IMG/VR virus record: IMGVR_UViG_3300043639_000058
Location: 1-38,351 of that record
Strand: one strand, 5' to 3'
Origin: a virus
Length of the DNA stretch: 38,351 bases
Shown here: positions 28,461 through 38,351 of the stretch, piece after piece
Position numbering within the stretch: position 1 is the first letter of the stretch
How the letters are laid out: every line of letters starts with the position of its first letter
Made by a program: the position numbers and the translations under genes
Notes under the pieces: generated by a model
What the model was told of the DNA's origin: nothing
Databases searched by the model: none
The model's input: the letters and a program-made list of their open reading frames with translations, nothing else

Positions 28461-28952
28461 TCACTTGATCACACGTAACAACGGCAGCGGCGTGTCGAAC
28501 TCGGAGAAGGCATCGACCTCGCCGCCCGGTCCGGCCGTCGTGACCCGCGATCGACTCGACGGCGTCAGGCCCAGTTCCGGCCAGAGCTTCAGGCACCCGG
28601 CGAGCGCCTTCGTCTGGATGGAGAGCCACGGATTCGGCATCGCATAACCGCTCGGCGCTTTCACCACGCGGGGGTACGCCTTCGCCCGCGCCTCCAGATA
28701 TCGATCCCATTCCAGACAGAGCGCGAGCAACGCGGCGCGGTCGGCTTCGGTGACCTGTCGGCTCCGCCGCAGGATCGGCGCGAGTCGCCGCCATTCCGCC
28801 GCGGCACCGGCCAGGTCCGCGAGCTCCGGCGGCGGCACGTCGAAATCGGCCCCCACGTCCTGCGGCTTCGGCTCGTCGACGTTCATCGGGCGGTGACCCG
28901 GATTGCCGTCGAGTCGACGCACAGACGACGGCTTGGGCTTGCGTCCGCGCAT
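28461..28952 (-). CDS. terS: Terminase small subunit, P27 family, 163 aa
   Basis: The start MRGRKPKPSSVRRLDGNPGH is the classic P27-type N-terminus (RGRKPKP...LxGNPGxR). The central helices with WRRLAPILRRSRQVTEADRA and ALCLEWDRYLEAR follow the family pattern. It binds the packaging site and helps the large subunit. The gene begins the structural operon next to a bidirectional promoter region. The ribosome binding site is weak (AGGGG immediately before ATG). Confidence 0.92.
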   Translation of the reverse strand: MRGRKPKPSSVRRLDGNPGHRPMNVDEPKPQDVGADFDVPPPELADLAGAAAEWRRLAPILRRSRQVTEADRAALLALCLEWDRYLEARAKAYPRVVKAPSGYAMPNPWLSIQTKALAGCLKLWPELGLTPSSRSRVTTAGPGGEVDAFSEFDTPLPLLRVIK

Positions 28953-29013
28953 CCCCTATGGCCTTTCAAAAGCTATCGGTTTACTCAATGTTTCCATGGG
29001 TTCCTAGATTTCC

Positions 29014-29060
29014 TTGCAATATCTGAGCGGTCCGATAGTATTGATGGAGTTCGTCGTCAA
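29014..29060. promoter_or_regulatory. Overlapping face-to-face promoter pair between terS and the rightward cassette
   Basis: Rightward: TTGCAA (29014-29019), 16 bases, TAGTAT (29036-29041). Leftward: TTGACG (29060-29055), 17 bases, TATCGG (29037-29032). Their -10 elements overlap, so firing of one would hinder the other. The region is visibly richer in A+T than its surroundings. These are pattern matches, not proven promoters. Confidence 0.42.
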
Positions 29061-29100
29061 TAGGGACGACGAACGAACGAGATGGAGTTTGCAAGTGCCG

Positions 29101-29628
29101 ATGACGCCCCAACAGATTGCCGCCGCCGCTGCGAAGCGGGCCGCGACACAAGCCGCGAACCGCGCGGCGGGGATTCCCACCGTCCGTCAGATGCGCGCGG
29201 CGAAAAAAGCCGCGAAGGCCGCCGCGCAGGGACAGACGTCGACGCCGCCCCCGCCGCCCCCGTTCTCCTCGACGCAGTCCTCCTCACGTCGTCGTCGCGG
29301 GTTCGCGTCGTCATCACAACGGACGCGCCCCGCGTCGTCGTCCTTCGGTGCATCGTCGCCGACCTTCGCCGCCGCACAGACACCGCCCGTCTTCGCGCCG
29401 CCGCCGACCTACCGCGCGTTGAAACTCGCCGCCCTCGCCGCTCTCGAATCCACGTTCGTCGCGAAGTTGCAGGAAACGGGCATCACTGACGACGTCCGCA
29501 ATTCCTACGCGACTTACAAAAAGTTGAAGGCGCTCGCCCTCGGGCCCGCCGCCAACAGTGCCATGCAGACGGAAGCCGATTCCGCCCTGCGCATGGCGAC
29601 CGCCGCTCTCGTGAAACTCGCTCTGTAA
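29101..29628 (+). CDS. Ala/Lys-rich, Ser/Pro-linked protein, 175 aa
   Basis: The N-terminal 1-45 is an Ala/Lys/Arg helix (AAAAAKRAATQAANRAAG, KKAAKAAAQG) like a histone H1-type tail. It is followed by a disordered Ser/Pro/Arg linker (residues 46-105) and a helical C-terminal domain with YRALKLAALAALESTFVAKL and a GITDDVRNSYATYKKLKAL segment. DNA binding is an inference from charge. ATG 29101 fits a transcript starting near 29048; in-frame ATG 29044 and TTG 29014 also exist. No known family recognised. Confidence 0.66.
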   Translation: MTPQQIAAAAAKRAATQAANRAAGIPTVRQMRAAKKAAKAAAQGQTSTPPPPPPFSSTQSSSRRRRGFASSSQRTRPASSSFGASSPTFAAAQTPPVFAPPPTYRALKLAALAALESTFVAKLQETGITDDVRNSYATYKKLKALALGPAANSAMQTEADSALRMATAALVKLAL

Positions 29629-29665
29629 CCCGTTAACCATTTTCAGAAAAAAGGCAGAACACATC

Positions 29666-30295
29666 ATGAACACGAACACCACCACGAAGACGACCACCGC
29701 GACGACGACCACCACGCCCGCCGAGTCGATGGACCTCGCGACCATCGAACGCAAGGCGCTCGACTCGCTCAACCGCTCGATGGCGAAGTCCGACCTCGAC
29801 GACCTCCTCGTCGGCGCGCGTCGGTCGCTCCTCCTCGTCGACTGTTCGTCCTCGATGCACGCGCGCACGATGGGCGGCAAACGGCGCATTGATGCGTTGC
29901 GCACGATCGTCACCGACTTGCGCGCGACCCACCCCGTCCCCCTCGCGGCGTTCGGCGGCAACGACCAAGTGGAAATCGTCGAGGCCCCCGTCGAGCCGAC
30001 CGGCGGCACGCCCCTCGACATCGCGATCGACTTCGGCAAGGAACAGGGTGCCAACCATCTCGTCGTCGTGACTGACGGCGAGCCCAACTCGGAACTGACC
30101 GCCTTCGCCGCCGCGAAACGATTCGGCGGTCCGATCGATGTGTTCTTCGTGGGTGACGCGTTCACGCGTGGCGCACAGTTCGCGAAGGAACTTGCCGAGA
30201 TGACGGGCGGCACGTCGGGCGTCTCGTCGCTCGACGCGCCCAAGGAACTCACGTCGAAGATTGCCGGTCTCCTCGGCGACGGCGGTGCCCTGTGA
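29666..30295 (+). CDS. von Willebrand factor A domain protein with intact metal site, 209 aa
   Basis: After a Thr-rich leader of about 20 residues, a vWA domain begins near 50. The MIDAS metal site is complete: Asp59-Ser61-Ser63 (LLLVDCSSSMHA), Thr115 (EPTGGTPLDIA) and Asp137 (VVVTDGEPN). vWA domains bind protein partners through a divalent metal, often as part of a larger machine such as a chelatase or a ternary complex. It starts at ATG 29666 behind an AAGG element and overlaps the next gene as GTGA, so it is probably co-expressed with the zinc-ribbon protein. Confidence 0.86.
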   Translation: MNTNTTTKTTTATTTTTPAESMDLATIERKALDSLNRSMAKSDLDDLLVGARRSLLLVDCSSSMHARTMGGKRRIDALRTIVTDLRATHPVPLAAFGGNDQVEIVEAPVEPTGGTPLDIAIDFGKEQGANHLVVVTDGEPNSELTAFAAAKRFGGPIDVFFVGDAFTRGAQFAKELAEMTGGTSGVSSLDAPKELTSKIAGLLGDGGAL

Positions 30296-30504
30296 AGGCA
30301 CCGTCCTTCGTGATTCTCGTCTGCGCGGACTGTCAACAGAAGAACCGGGTCCTTGACCCGGTTCCCCTCGGCAAGGTCGCGCAGTGTGGCAAGTGCAAGT
30401 CGCGTGACCTCGTCGACCCCGACGACGACGACGACATGGACGACGACGACATGGACGACGACGACATGGACGACGACGACGAGGACGACGATGGCGGCAT
30501 CTGA
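30292..30504 (+). CDS. Zinc ribbon with acidic repeat tail, 70 aa
   Basis: GTG at 30292 overlaps the vWA stop. The N-terminal 40 residues form a zinc ribbon (CADCQQKNRV and CGKCKSRDL). The tail consists of Asp-rich DDDDM repeats encoded by 15-base units, about 25 residues almost entirely acidic. Acidic tails mimic DNA or bind basic proteins and metals. The pairing with a vWA protein is unusual. The start of the next gene lies inside the tail's coding region. Confidence 0.72.
   Translation: MKAPSFVILVCADCQQKNRVLDPVPLGKVAQCGKCKSRDLVDPDDDDDMDDDDMDDDDMDDDDEDDDGGI
30436..30480 (+). repeat. 15-bp tandem repeats encoding the acidic tail
   Basis: ATGGACGACGACGAC recurs with ATG at 30436, 30451 and 30466, a perfect period of 15. 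The repeats keep frame, so copy-number change would only lengthen or shorten the acidic tail. Confidence 0.85.
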
Positions 30505-30964
30505 CGTCATCCTCACGCCCCACACGGTCGACGTCGAGGGCGGGATCGTCGCGGGTCTGTTAGTGCGGACCAAGAGTCGACGCGACCTCGGATACATCTG
30601 GCGCGCGGGGTCCGTGTGGCGATGGCGCACCGTCAATAACAGTTCATACGGGGAGCGGTACTCGCAACAGGCGGCGGTCACGGTCCTGCGGGACATCGCC
30701 CTTGTGATGACGCAGCCGGTGCCCGTCGTCTCGTCCTTGCCGATGAAGGACCAAGACATCCTCGCGATGTGGCGTGAACGCGCGAAGGGGTCATCGTCGA
30801 CCCCGCGCGCGACTGCGCCGCCCTCCACCCCGCGCGTCGTCGCGAAGACGACGCCGCCGCCTGCCACTCCTGCACGACGCATCGTGTGGGACACGACGAA
30901 CACCAACGCGCACGACTTAACCGCCGCGATCGGTGCGGCCCTGAAACGAGAGCAAGGCAAGTAG
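30491..30964 (+). CDS. Hypothetical protein with Pro/Thr linker, 157 aa
   Basis: ATG at 30491 lies 14 bases inside the preceding gene. Residues 1-80 form a compact domain with YIWRAGSVWRWRTVNNSSYG and YSQQAAVTVLRDIALVM; then a Pro/Thr/Ser-rich linker (about 98-125) leads to a short C-terminal motif (RIVWDTTNTNAHDLTAAIGA). The architecture resembles an interaction protein. No family recognised. Confidence 0.66.
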   Translation: MAASDVILTPHTVDVEGGIVAGLLVRTKSRRDLGYIWRAGSVWRWRTVNNSSYGERYSQQAAVTVLRDIALVMTQPVPVVSSLPMKDQDILAMWRERAKGSSSTPRATAPPSTPRVVAKTTPPPATPARRIVWDTTNTNAHDLTAAIGAALKREQGK

Positions 30965-30966
30965 TG

Positions 30967-31374
30967 ATGACTGTTGACCGATTGAGAACTCACGCCCACG
31001 AACTCGCCCGCGCGTTCCACGTGCGACTGTGCGAGTCGACGCAGATCAAGCCCGATGAGGCGTTCGCCCTCGGGAGTGGTCTGCGCCTCGTCGTCGTCTC
31101 GCCCATCATCGACGAGACGACCTATGCCGTCGCGTTGCACGAACTCGGACACCTCGTCTCGCCGATGGGCATGTTGCGCGCGCACGTCGACGGCAACCAC
31201 GCGCGACTGTCGCGCGACGAGGAAGACGCCGCATGGACGTGGGCCGAACACGTGGCGCTCCTGTGGACCCCGCCGATGGCGGCGGTCCGCGCATGGGCCG
31301 AGGGCACGTATGCCGACAAGCCGCTCTCCGCGAACAAACCAAAACAAAAAATTGACTGGAAGATGTGGAGTTGA
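30967..31374 (+). CDS. Zincin-like metallopeptidase-type protein, 135 aa
   Basis: The motif HELGH (His58, Glu59, His62) in AVALHELGHLVSP is the zinc-binding and catalytic helix of zincin metallopeptidases; an acidic RLSRDEEDAAWTWAEHVALL at about 80-99 could supply the third ligand. Size and layout resemble phage ImmA/IrrE-like proteins that cleave regulators. Target unknown. Starts two bases after the previous stop. Confidence 0.78.
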   Translation: MTVDRLRTHAHELARAFHVRLCESTQIKPDEAFALGSGLRLVVVSPIIDETTYAVALHELGHLVSPMGMLRAHVDGNHARLSRDEEDAAWTWAEHVALLWTPPMAAVRAWAEGTYADKPLSANKPKQKIDWKMWS

Positions 31375-31375
31375 A

Positions 31376-31729
31376 ATGACTGTGAAGATTGATTGGAACA
31401 CGACGACGACGACGCAATCGGTCACCGTCAAAATCCTGCCGTCGGACCGCCTGGTCGCCGGCAAAATCGCCGACGCCGAACTGCACTTCACCGATGGCGC
31501 GCTCGTCGGACTGAAGTTGATCGGGTTCTCCGTGTGGGAACGTCGCGGTGATGCGAAGACCCGCAACGTCACCTTCCCCGCGCGATCGTATGCCGTCAAC
31601 GGCGAGCGGCGGTCGTTCGCCCTTCTGCGACCGCAACAGGACGTCCGCGACAGTGACCGCATCCGCGATTTGATCCTCGCCGCATACACCGTGTGGGAGC
31701 AGGCGCAGGCGGAAGGGGCGCAGTCGTAA
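31376..31729 (+). CDS. Hypothetical protein, 117 aa
   Basis: It begins MTVKIDWNTTTTTQSVTVKI and is beta-rich with GALVGLKLIGFSVWERRGD, followed by a helix (SDRIRDLILAAYTVWEQAQA). The ATG is one base after the preceding stop and the next gene's ATG overlaps its own stop (TAATG). Small ssDNA-binding-like or adaptor folds would fit the pattern, but I do not recognise it. Confidence 0.7.
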   Translation: MTVKIDWNTTTTTQSVTVKILPSDRLVAGKIADAELHFTDGALVGLKLIGFSVWERRGDAKTRNVTFPARSYAVNGERRSFALLRPQQDVRDSDRIRDLILAAYTVWEQAQAEGAQS

Positions 31730-32001
31730 TGGCCCTGTTCATTCCGGCGCAGGGGGCAGCTCGCGAGCTGCACCCCGCCCACGGCGACGGCTTCAGACTC
31801 GACGAACTCCAGTCGCTCGTCGGCGGGTTCATCGAGGTCCGACGTCTGCACGACGGACGACTCCTCGTGATGAACGAAGACGGCAAGGCGCTCGGCCTGC
31901 CGGTCAACGCCGCGGCGACCGCCCTGTTTGCACGATCGGCGGCATGGGCCGACGTCGTGGTCGGTGACGTCGTCATCTGCAACGACAGGGAGATGCAGTG
32001 A
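31729..32001 (+). CDS. DUF3846-like protein, 90 aa
   Basis: The segment LDELQSLVGGFIEVRRLHDG, then LLVMNEDGKALGLPVN and ATALFARSAAWADVVVGDVV, matches the pattern of DUF3846, a small domain common in phages and mobile elements, often near DNA-modification or antirestriction genes. The molecular role is unknown. It overlaps both neighbours by one to two bases. Confidence 0.8.
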   Translation: MALFIPAQGAARELHPAHGDGFRLDELQSLVGGFIEVRRLHDGRLLVMNEDGKALGLPVNAAATALFARSAAWADVVVGDVVICNDREMQ

Positions 32002-32201
32002 TGGGCGCGTCACCGCGTCACCACGACGACGTTTGTCCGTCCTGCGGGGGCCACGTCGTCCTTGTCACGGACGGCTTGGTCGGTCGCCTGATGTGTCCCA
32101 CATGGTTCGTCATCGGGCGGAGCGAGACGTACTGGCGCATGGACCCGGTGCCGTTTCGCGCCTGCACGGCGTGCGAGTTCTGTGAAGAGGTGCGGCGATG
32201 A
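32001..32201 (+). CDS. Small zinc-ribbon protein, 66 aa
   Basis: ATG at 32001 overlaps the preceding stop as TGATG; a GTG at 31998 is possible. The protein has CPSCGGHVVL near the N-terminus and CTACEFCEEVRR at the end, enough for one zinc site. It lies in a run of co-translated genes. Function unknown. Confidence 0.68.
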   Translation: MGASPRHHDDVCPSCGGHVVLVTDGLVGRLMCPTWFVIGRSETYWRMDPVPFRACTACEFCEEVRR

Positions 32202-32629
32202 TCGGCTATGATTCGGAGCGGTCTGATATGGCACCCACCACGAAGAAAAACCGGGCGGCGCAGTCGCTCGGTCGGCTCGGCGGACAGGCGGGCACGAAAA
32301 AACAAAATGCCGCCCGCAAACAGAACGCGCAGCTCGCGGGTCGCCCGCGTCGAGTCTGCACCACCTGCGGCGAGCCGGTCGTCGGCGGGCATGTCGATCG
32401 CCGCCTGGACGACTCCTGCGGCGCGCACGGCTGGCGATGGCAACAGAAGCGCCACCCCCCGACCGTCGAGTCGTTGCGCGAACAGATTGAGGCGCACCAT
32501 CGCGCCATCGTGTCGCTGGAACAGCAACTCGCGACGGCGACCATCGGCGCGCTCCACGCCCGCGTTGGCGACGACGATCCCGATTTTGAAGCGCGCGCGT
32601 TAGCGGTCCTGCGAAAAAAGGATCGCTAA
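32198..32629 (+). CDS. Basic protein with zinc ribbon and coiled coil, 143 aa
   Basis: The N-terminal 45 residues are Lys/Arg-rich (TKKNRAAQSLGRLGGQAGTK). A CTTCGEPVVGGH segment at about 54-65 with CGAHGW after it forms a likely zinc site, followed by a helix with LREQIEAHHRAIVSLEQQLA. This combination suggests nucleic-acid binding with self-association. ATG 32198 overlaps the preceding stop. Confidence 0.68.
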   Translation: MIGYDSERSDMAPTTKKNRAAQSLGRLGGQAGTKKQNAARKQNAQLAGRPRRVCTTCGEPVVGGHVDRRLDDSCGAHGWRWQQKRHPPTVESLREQIEAHHRAIVSLEQQLATATIGALHARVGDDDPDFEARALAVLRKKDR

Positions 32630-32631
32630 TC

Positions 32632-32976
32632 GTGCTGATCTTCATCAAGGGCCCCTATCTCGCACAGATTGTCGACGGCTCGAAGACGTCGACGATCCGC
32701 CCGTGGAAGACGTGCAAACTCCTACCGGGTGGGTCGTTGACGTTTAACGGCAAGGTGCGTGTGGTCCTGACGCACGTCGATCGCCGTCGACTCGGCGACC
32801 TGACCGACCTCGACGCACGACGTGACGGCTTCGTGTCCGTCGCCGCCTTCCGCCGCGCCTTCCGCCAGCACTATCCCACCGTCACCGCCGACTCCTCCGT
32901 CGTCGTCTTGCGCTTCGCCTCGCCGTCCCACAAGGCAAGGGCGCAGGCGCGATCCCGCCACGGCTCCCCGACATAA
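32632..32976 (+). CDS. ASCH-domain-like protein, 114 aa
   Basis: The start LIFIKGPYLAQIVDGSKTST followed by IRPWKTC fits the ASCH fold (K.pY...I..G.KT.T.R). ASCH proteins bind RNA or modified nucleotides in translation and nucleotide metabolism. The C-terminal 30 residues are basic and low-complexity and overlap the end of the convergent ABC-GNAT gene by 106 bases. GTG at 32632 is the start, three bases after the previous stop. Confidence 0.77.
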   Translation: MLIFIKGPYLAQIVDGSKTSTIRPWKTCKLLPGGSLTFNGKVRVVLTHVDRRRLGDLTDLDARRDGFVSVAAFRRAFRQHYPTVTADSSVVVLRFASPSHKARAQARSRHGSPT

Positions 32977-34049
32977 CGAAACGTCGCGGTCAATCGGAAC
33001 TCCCGAGGGAATCGAACCCTTCGGGCGTTGCCTTTGGGCCCCCGACTTTGCGGCGCGTTGAAGCCGGGACGTCGGGTCATCTCCCACGATCGCGAGCGCG
33101 CACGGGCGGCGATGAACGCCGGGTGGCTCGTCGTGCTGTAGTAGTCGCCGCCGGTCGCCGCGTTGACGACGGCCGCCACCAGCGCCGATTGCGCCATCCC
33201 GATCCCGACCCCCTGAAACTCTGGCAGACAGACCGTCCGATGTTCGCGCCACCGCCCCTTGAAGCCGGTGACCGGCAGCACCGCGGTGAAGCCGACCGGC
33301 ACGTCGTGCCAGGTGGTGAGGAAACACCGGGCGCTGTGGTTCACGGTGCCACTCAGATAGTGATGGTCACGGAAGCGGGGCCACTGCGTGTCGTCGGTGC
33401 GCGCGATCCGAATCTCGATGGCGGGGCGGGCTTGAAGTTCCCTCCAGTGGAACGTCCGCAGGTGCGGCGCGTACACCCAGTCCGGTTGCAGCCACGGCTC
33501 GACGTCTTCGTGACAGGTGACGGCGACGAACTGCTGCCCGTCCCGGCGCACCGTCTTCGCCAGCGCCGCCGACCCAATCTGCGCGACACGACGATCGACC
33601 ACGGACGTGAACTCGTCGAACACGGTCACCCGCTTGCCTGCTTCCGCCAGTGCGCGCGCGAGCGTGACCCTGAACTGTTCGCCGGTCGACAACACGTGGA
33701 AGGGCCGCAGCCAGCCCGGTGGCGACGAGAAGCCGACCGAGGACAGCAGCGCCGTGATGGTCTTGATCGACATGCCGGTCGGGAAGCCGTCCACGAGGGC
33801 ACGGCCCGCCGGCCAATCGAAGCCGGTCACCAGCTCGGTGCCGAACAGCTCGCGGGCGATCGACGACTTGCCCGACCCCGAGGGGCCGACGATTAAGCCG
33901 ACCGACCACGGACGGTCCTCGATCGGCAGGTCGACGTCCCACACCAGCGGCGCGCGCGCGCTCGGCGGCAGGTCGAAGTACCCCTCCAACTGCACGACAC
34001 GCGGCGACCGGGGGACGTTCGACGTTCTTACGACACGACCGCGCGGCAT
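32871..34049 (-). CDS. ABC-type ATPase fused to a GNAT acetyltransferase domain, 392 aa
   Basis: The N-terminal ABC ATPase has Walker A GPSGSGKS (55-62), signature LSTGEQ (120-125), Walker B VTVFDEF with Asp145-Glu146, and the switch histidine His180. From about 205 a GNAT-like acyltransferase follows, with YLSGTVNHSARCFLTTWHDV and the acyl-CoA loop LPEFQGVGIG (275-284). There is no membrane domain, so it is not a transporter. It could modify DNA or protein; Mu Mom, which modifies adenine, also has a GNAT fold. The C-terminus overlaps the ASCH-like gene. ATG 34049 has a GAGGGG site. Confidence 0.87.
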   Translation of the reverse strand: MPRGRVVRTSNVPRSPRVVQLEGYFDLPPSARAPLVWDVDLPIEDRPWSVGLIVGPSGSGKSSIARELFGTELVTGFDWPAGRALVDGFPTGMSIKTITALLSSVGFSSPPGWLRPFHVLSTGEQFRVTLARALAEAGKRVTVFDEFTSVVDRRVAQIGSAALAKTVRRDGQQFVAVTCHEDVEPWLQPDWVYAPHLRTFHWRELQARPAIEIRIARTDDTQWPRFRDHHYLSGTVNHSARCFLTTWHDVPVGFTAVLPVTGFKGRWREHRTVCLPEFQGVGIGMAQSALVAAVVNAATGGDYYSTTSHPAFIAARARSRSWEMTRRPGFNAPQSRGPKGNARRVRFPREFRLTATFRYVGEPWRDRACALALWDGEAKRKTTTEESAVTVG

Positions 34050-37869: not shown

Positions 37870-38351
37870 GGCTGGCTCCGGCCCCGGCGAAGTCGAGCGC
37901 CGGTTGTTCGGGCTGGAAGGTGACGAACCGCTGTTCCGTGTGCCACGCCTGGACGAACTCGAGCTCGTGGGAGCCGAGCGCCGCGACGGTCAGGCGGCAG
38001 ATGAACGCGAAGCCGTCCACGTCCTTCTCGGTCCGCACGCGCGGCTTGGTGATGTCGACGGCGAACAGCGACAACGCGCCCGCGTCCCCGAGCTGCTGCT
38101 CCGGCAGGAGCCGCACGACCAGGCGCTGCTTCGGCACGGCAAACGCGAACTCGCATTTCTTAATCAGCGGCTTCGGGTCGCCGCTCCCCATCGTGAAGAT
38201 CAGCGAGCGCACGTCGGGATTGAGCGCGATGGCGAGCTGTGGCGTGAATGGCTGCACGCGCAACGTCAGATCGATCAGCTTCGTCTCGCCGCTTTTCGTT
38301 TTCTCGACCCGATGCCCGATCGCATCGAGGTAGCAGCCGACGTGTTCTTCG
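37856..38351 (-). CDS. Conserved phage protein of unknown function, 3' part (gene crosses the join)
   Basis: This is the main body of the roughly 169-residue protein whose start codon lies at 161 on the circular map; inside this window the frame is open from the right edge to the stop at 37856. The sequence is mixed alpha/beta in character, with segments such as LIFTMGSGDPKPLIKKCEF and a hydrophobic C-terminal half, and has no signal peptide or membrane segment. The stop lies 14 bases beyond the start of the next leftward gene (ATG at 37869), so the two are probably co-translated. Function unknown. Confidence 0.75.
   Translation of the reverse strand, partial: EEHVGCYLDAIGHRVEKTKSGETKLIDLTLRVQPFTPQLAIALNPDVRSLIFTMGSGDPKPLIKKCEFAFAVPKQRLVVRLLPEQQLGDAGALSLFAVDITKPRVRTEKDVDGFAFICRLTVAALGSHELEFVQAWHTEQRFVTFQPEQPALDFAGAGASHAGR
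38205..38351. repeat. Right copy of terminal direct overlap (circular map)
   Basis: This is the second copy of bases 1-147, with a T at 38331 where the left copy has G at 127. Joining base 38204 to base 1 restores a complete leftward gene with a good ribosome binding site. Confidence 0.93.

Follow-up and report, generated by a model that had tools for sequence, protein, structure and literature searches.

A g1-vWA-zincin gene core shared by phages and its possible link to DNA metabolism

MoxR is the usual partner of vWA proteins, and phage end joining by Ku and an ATP-dependent ligase is exemplified by the Ku proteins of Corndog and Omega. In group 2.2 jumbo phages, MoxR is found with a vWA domain fused to a metallopeptidase, and a role in virion assembly has been proposed (PMC7824862). 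The window analyzed in this study is the whole 38,351-base IMG/VR record IMGVR_UViG_3300043639_000058, from an uncultivated phage, in which ten open reading frames (ORFs; g1 to g10, Table 1) at positions 29101-32976 lie on the + strand, opposite to the structural operon. Similar to the jumbo-phage pairs (PMC7824862), this block encodes a vWA protein (g2) alongside a predicted zincin-type metallopeptidase (g5); unlike in those pairs, the two are separate ORFs in all loci read. The real and conserved element is a core of g1, vWA, and zincin rather than the whole ten-gene block, and a link between this core and DNA metabolism is supported through guilt by association.

Loci (designated by L numbers) were collected with a vWA-first scan, which yielded 25 loci, and a zincin-first scan, which yielded 29, some records being shared by several of these loci. 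With the window included and identical phages collapsed to one entry, the zincin is carried by 26 phage records. Both g1 and vWA lie within 2.4 kb of the zincin and on the same strand in 20 of these 26 non-redundant carriers, while the locus is cut by contig ends in two further carriers (L028 and L063) and four (L054, L056, L057/L058, and L059) have no vWA neighbor. The zincin-first search independently retrieved g1 and vWA in L047-L050 and L060, as well as a vWA gene at the contig edge in L063. In close relatives the order is terS, g1, vWA, (g4), zincin, (g3), g9, and ASCH, followed on the other strand by ABC-GNAT and ParB, and independent contigs largely keep this order, their proteins being roughly 40-60% identical; it is reshuffled locally in L005, where the zincin precedes vWA, and in L010, where vWA precedes g1. 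Since the same genes recur in largely the same order in independent contigs, a chance arrangement is excluded. The three core genes also share one strand in L010, L014-L019, L050, and L060, where no terminase or portal relative was found in the stretches examined. It is this recurrence, in 20 of 26 carriers and including phages without such relatives, that identifies the core as a real unit.

The remaining genes are distributed differently. Homologs of g9 and ASCH (g10) occur only in close relatives, in most of which ASCH is the final cassette gene; g6, g7, and g8 are sporadic among relatives, with DUF3846 (g7) present in L007/L009 and L028 and a g8 homolog of 58% identity in L006; and g3 and g4 are intermediate, with g4 homologs in L005, L006, L010, L011, L028, L047, L048, and L060. 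Genes g6-g10, which encode small Cys-rich, DUF3846, and ASCH proteins, are thus branch-specific passengers. The initial annotation had treated all ten genes as a single unit, which they are not, and had singled out vWA and the acidic zinc ribbon (g3) as a pair to look for in other phages; g1 and the zincin are each more conserved partners of vWA than this ribbon. The refuting observation that it named, genes found independently of each other and in no fixed order, does not apply to the core g1-vWA-(g4)-zincin. Among 80 TerL relatives, most lack the block, with terS directly following ParB or other genes where the flank suffices, and the module was found in L079 and L105 only, both of them known records. 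The module is therefore an accessory insertion in the window's lineage and not part of its core gene set.

A gene for an ATP-dependent DNA ligase (PF01068) is present in 15 of the 26 carriers (L010, L011, L014-L018, L028, L029, L050, L056, L059, L060, and L063, plus a partial gene in L019), always on the strand of the zincin and within 3.1 kb of it. This ligase was absent from all 30 whole records of the same TerL family that lack the module and from all nine vWA records that lack the zincin (Fisher test, p 1.6e-11 against 78 TerL flanks and p 0.004 against the nine vWA records, with rows that are not independent). The ligases fall in well-separated clades and differ in their N-termini, which suggests that the association may have arisen repeatedly. 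Ku adjoins the module in L014 (E 4.6e-28), the only locus with both Ku and ligase. Other neighbors in distant carriers include SNF2 helicases, family A DNA polymerase (PolA), exonuclease, uracil-DNA glycosylase, and thymidylate synthase. 

Several further features were recorded around these genes. The Ku and ligase genes of L014 (L014:11724-14491) are no more than 4 kb away from its g1-vWA-zincin core. A WGR domain on the L015, L016, and L063 ligases and a SWIM finger on the L011, L028, and L029 ligases were seen by eye only, were not returned by Pfam where scanned, and were not used as evidence. A sliding-clamp-like cassette gene with a TDGHRALL motif and a basic N-terminus in L001, L011, L012, and L048 (e.g., L012:11849-12862) likewise had no Pfam match where scanned.

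The vWA protein is 209 amino acids long, with its domain at residues ~54-205. The initial annotation's description of a complete MIDAS was confirmed: the motif DCSSS...T...TDG is present and its residues (D59, S61, S63, T115, and D137) are invariant in 25 relatives. The family profile matches PDB chains with a best E of 2.7e-7 (4f1j, a solved vWA domain), and the single-sequence Pfam vWA match of g2 falls just under the gathering score. An Asp/Glu tail is fused to vWA in L015-L019, whereas the window's branch has it on a separate protein, the g3 ribbon, which suggests that the acidic tail may serve the vWA complex. In distant phages g1 has a treble-clef-like zinc finger at its N-terminus; an AlphaFold2 (AF2) model of the L016 homolog (predicted local distance difference test [pLDDT] 81, above 90 in the C-terminal helices) combines a zinc-finger-like N-terminus with a C-terminal helical domain. 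Assignment of this N-terminus to the PARP-type fingers, attractive on visual inspection, was rejected, as there was no Pfam match and Foldseek did not rank PARP fingers apart from RING and C1 fingers, all at E>=0.1. Domains resembling the C-domain of g1 adjoin vWA even in L021 and L023, which are very distant phages (hhalign E 1.2e-4); a profile from which these proteins were left out does not retrieve them, and only profile-profile comparison does. In the vWA family tree, the g1/zincin clade is separate from a clade with vWA directly downstream of a DnaJ-domain gene. This sister clade of short vWA proteins comprises L020, L022, L024, L025, L027, and L002, and the DnaJ-domain gene stands just upstream of vWA where read (Pfam-confirmed in L020, L024, and L027). 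A change of partner among chaperones and proteases would be expected of a vWA adaptor.

In the zincin, H58, E59, H62, and E86 are invariant in 15 sequences, with E86 the probable downstream ligand, and the AF2 model of g5 is confident (pLDDT 90, predicted template modeling score 0.82). Its top matches in the BFVD viral fold library are IrrE-like (probability 1.0, E 0.009-0.03, TM-score 0.5-0.6), and the best match to PF06114 (Peptidase_M78), found in one of the 15 members, has an E of 0.065, under the cut-off. The usual zincin is missing from L007 and L009, where an M78-like (IrrE-like) zincin (Pfam M78 E 0.0015) lies between g3 and g9. Since comparison of the L009 protein with the usual-zincin profile (hhalign) showed no homology, it was treated as a replacement by a different zincin, implying that zincin activity probably matters to the module. 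A scan of a genome collection returned only cellular zincin relatives without vWA neighbors, and no phage host emerged. The homologs in proteobacterial metagenome-assembled genomes (L034, L038, L039, L040, and L044) also lack vWA, and several have a glycosidase-like and an ABC-F-like gene, conserved as a pair, next to them.

Mainly because of the ligase, Ku, and DNA-replication and repair gene neighborhood, the core (g1, vWA, often g4, and zincin) is tentatively read as a horizontally exchanged phage accessory module for DNA end processing or repair, with a probability of roughly 0.4. In the mechanism that we infer, g1 would contact DNA through its basic or zinc-finger N-terminus, vWA would act as a Mg2+-dependent adaptor binding g1 and its partners, the zincin would remove or cleave proteins on DNA (at blocked ends, roadblocks, or a repressor), and the module's ligase, where present, would seal the DNA. 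In the window phage, host ligase would do the sealing. A more specific form of this proposal, a new DNA-repair machine, is quite unlikely: g1 would recognize damaged or free ends, vWA would assemble with Mg2+, the zincin would strip covalently or tightly end-bound proteins, and a phage or host ligase would then reseal, which would make the system a phage counterpart to the coupling of crosslink proteolysis with end joining. It is also important to note that several results weigh against the end-processing reading. Ligase and Ku are both missing from the window phage, though its genome looks complete, and no ligase turned up in the records searched for 11 of the 26 carriers, some of these contigs being incomplete. 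The carriers are related, which inflates the ligase counts, and in close relatives the block abuts terS and not replication genes. The proteolytic activity of the zincin is a prediction; the protein falls under all Pfam and PHROG cut-offs, has no significant match among PDB sequences, and matches PDB folds at E>0.3 with none at E<0.001. If the reading is correct, the core represents a new phage DNA-metabolism module shared across structurally unrelated phages, with an ATP-dependent ligase and no MoxR partner, gives testable functions to several families unnamed in any library, and adds a new example of vWA and a protease acting together on DNA.

There are several potential alternatives. IrrE and ImmA cleave repressors following DNA damage, and the core could be a regulatory or host-takeover module in which vWA presents a substrate, either a repressor of phage or host origin or a defense protein, for cleavage by the IrrE/ImmA-like zincin. 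The nearest viral folds of the zincin are IrrE-like, L009 has an M78-type zincin in the equivalent position, and the integrase gene indicates that the window phage may be temperate; nonetheless this explanation is doubtful, as it leaves the ligase linkage unexplained, the gene calls inspected show no repressor gene next to the zincin, and the PADLOC models returned no defense-family match below E 0.01 (their one match was of g4 to a specificity subunit, E 0.02). It is unlikely that the core is a protein-assembly or chaperone module for virions, with vWA as co-chaperone and the zincin as maturation protease. Such a role would fit the position of the block directly beside terS-terL in close relatives, the DnaJ-associated sister clade, and the MoxR and vWA-metallopeptidase fusion of the group 2.2 jumbo phages, with its proposed assembly role (PMC7824862), but the module lies on the strand opposite the structural operon, is found among DNA-replication genes rather than structural ones in distant carriers, keeps its vWA and zincin domains unfused, and has no convincing MoxR (AAA_5) partner in 26 records (none in the window and only weak, partial ATP-binding-motif matches elsewhere). 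The host-takeover, antidefense, or virion-associated roles raised in the initial annotation found no positive evidence, and the neighborhood (ligase, Ku, PolA, and SNF2 helicase) indicates DNA metabolism instead.

It is very unlikely that the genes have no single function and merely accumulated as unrelated accessories in a parB-terS interval acting as an insertion hot spot. Gene content does vary, with DUF3846, ASCH, g6, and g8 sporadic, and the block beside terS is absent in most TerL relatives with enough flank; g1-vWA-zincin, however, keeps its strand and a similar spacing where the terS/terL site is lacking (L010, L014-L019, L050, and L060). The hot-spot explanation is largely refuted for the core and plausible for g6-g10.

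The window record carries a 147-bp direct repeat at its two ends (1-147 and 38205-38351, 99% identity) and therefore most likely represents a complete genome, about 38.2 kb long, in which the structural operon occupies the - strand and a tyrosine integrase is encoded. The block has the same GC content as the rest of this genome. Its inverted position between terS and ABC-GNAT agrees with the initial annotation, except that ABC-GNAT is one fused ORF and not a pair; the 3' end of this ORF and the ASCH gene share about 105 bp, and in relatives the ORF is conserved beside ParB. The very tight packing was also confirmed, the longest gap being 37 bp and several ORFs overlapping slightly (+37, -4, -14, +2, +1, -1, -4, -4, and +2 bp along the ten ORFs), but the putative promoter was not recovered, as a consensus search found no sigma-70-like site in 28800-33100. 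An Rfam search gave no match. The protein features named in the initial annotation were likewise found: a Cys4 ribbon followed by an Asp-rich tail (DDDDDMDDDDMDDDDM...) in g3, HELGH with a downstream Glu in g5, and Pfam matches above the gathering cut-offs for g7 (DUF3846, E 1.4e-11, 44.9 bits against 27.5) and g10 (ASCH, E 3.5e-9, 37.7 bits against 21.2).

Table 1. Genes of the ten-ORF block and its flanks in the window.
Feature	Coordinates	Strand	Description
terS	28461-28952	-	upstream flank of block
g1	29101-29628	+	N-terminal basic Ala/Lys/Arg-rich region and conserved C-terminal helical domain
g2	29666-30295	+	vWA-domain protein, full MIDAS, short N-terminal helix
g3	30292-30504	+	thioredoxin-2-like Cys4 zinc ribbon, Asp-rich tail
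g4	30491-30964	+	unnamed family, motif GxxVR..GYxWxxGxxWRWRT..GER, usually adjoins zincin
g5	30967-31374	+	compact zincin, HELGH...EEDAAWTWA
g6	31376-31729	+	unnamed protein; homolog in L047
g7	31729-32001	+	DUF3846 protein
g8	31998-32201	+	small Cys-rich protein; start GTG 31998 or ATG 32001
g9	32198-32629	+	basic N-terminus LGRLGG...QNAQ.AGRP and Cys motif CGEPV.GGHVD; start 32198 or 32228
g10	32632-32976	+	ASCH-domain protein
ABC-ATPase/GNAT protein, one fused ORF	32871-33995	-	downstream flank of block

The initial annotation knew of no described system with this composition, and the g1-vWA-zincin core is undescribed in Pfam, PHROGs, PADLOC, INPHARED, and the literature searches made; searches of the open literature, with subscription journals mostly outside their coverage, returned no description of the module. 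An annotated phage collection yielded a single distant vWA match and no zincin match, and absence from this collection would explain why the module has gone unnoticed. Membership in the TROVE, M78, and NHEJ (non-homologous end joining) systems fails on at least one tested feature each. Compared to TROVE/Ro60 vWA proteins (phrog_850), g2 shows weak vWA-domain similarity (PDB TROVE E 6e-4) but is essentially vWA alone, with no TROVE HEAT-repeat domain and no Pfam TROVE match. The zincin shares with Peptidase_M78 (IrrE/ImmA) the HExxH motif and a downstream Glu in an E..AAW.WA helix; however, at 135 amino acids it has no helix-turn-helix or C-terminal domain, scores under the Pfam and PHROG cut-offs, and carries its own motifs, D.TTYAVALHE.GH and W(T/S)..M. 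As in phage Ku/ligase end joining, the module adjoins ligase in 15 of 26 carriers and Ku in L014, but the window has neither, Ku occurs once, and vWA, zincin, and g1 fall outside described bacterial-type end joining. The closest published phage case of a vWA protein with a metallopeptidase that was found is the jumbo-phage MoxR-vWA-metallopeptidase pair (PMC7824862), from which the present module is further distinguished by an adjacent g1 in 20 of 26 carriers and by its frequent ligase.

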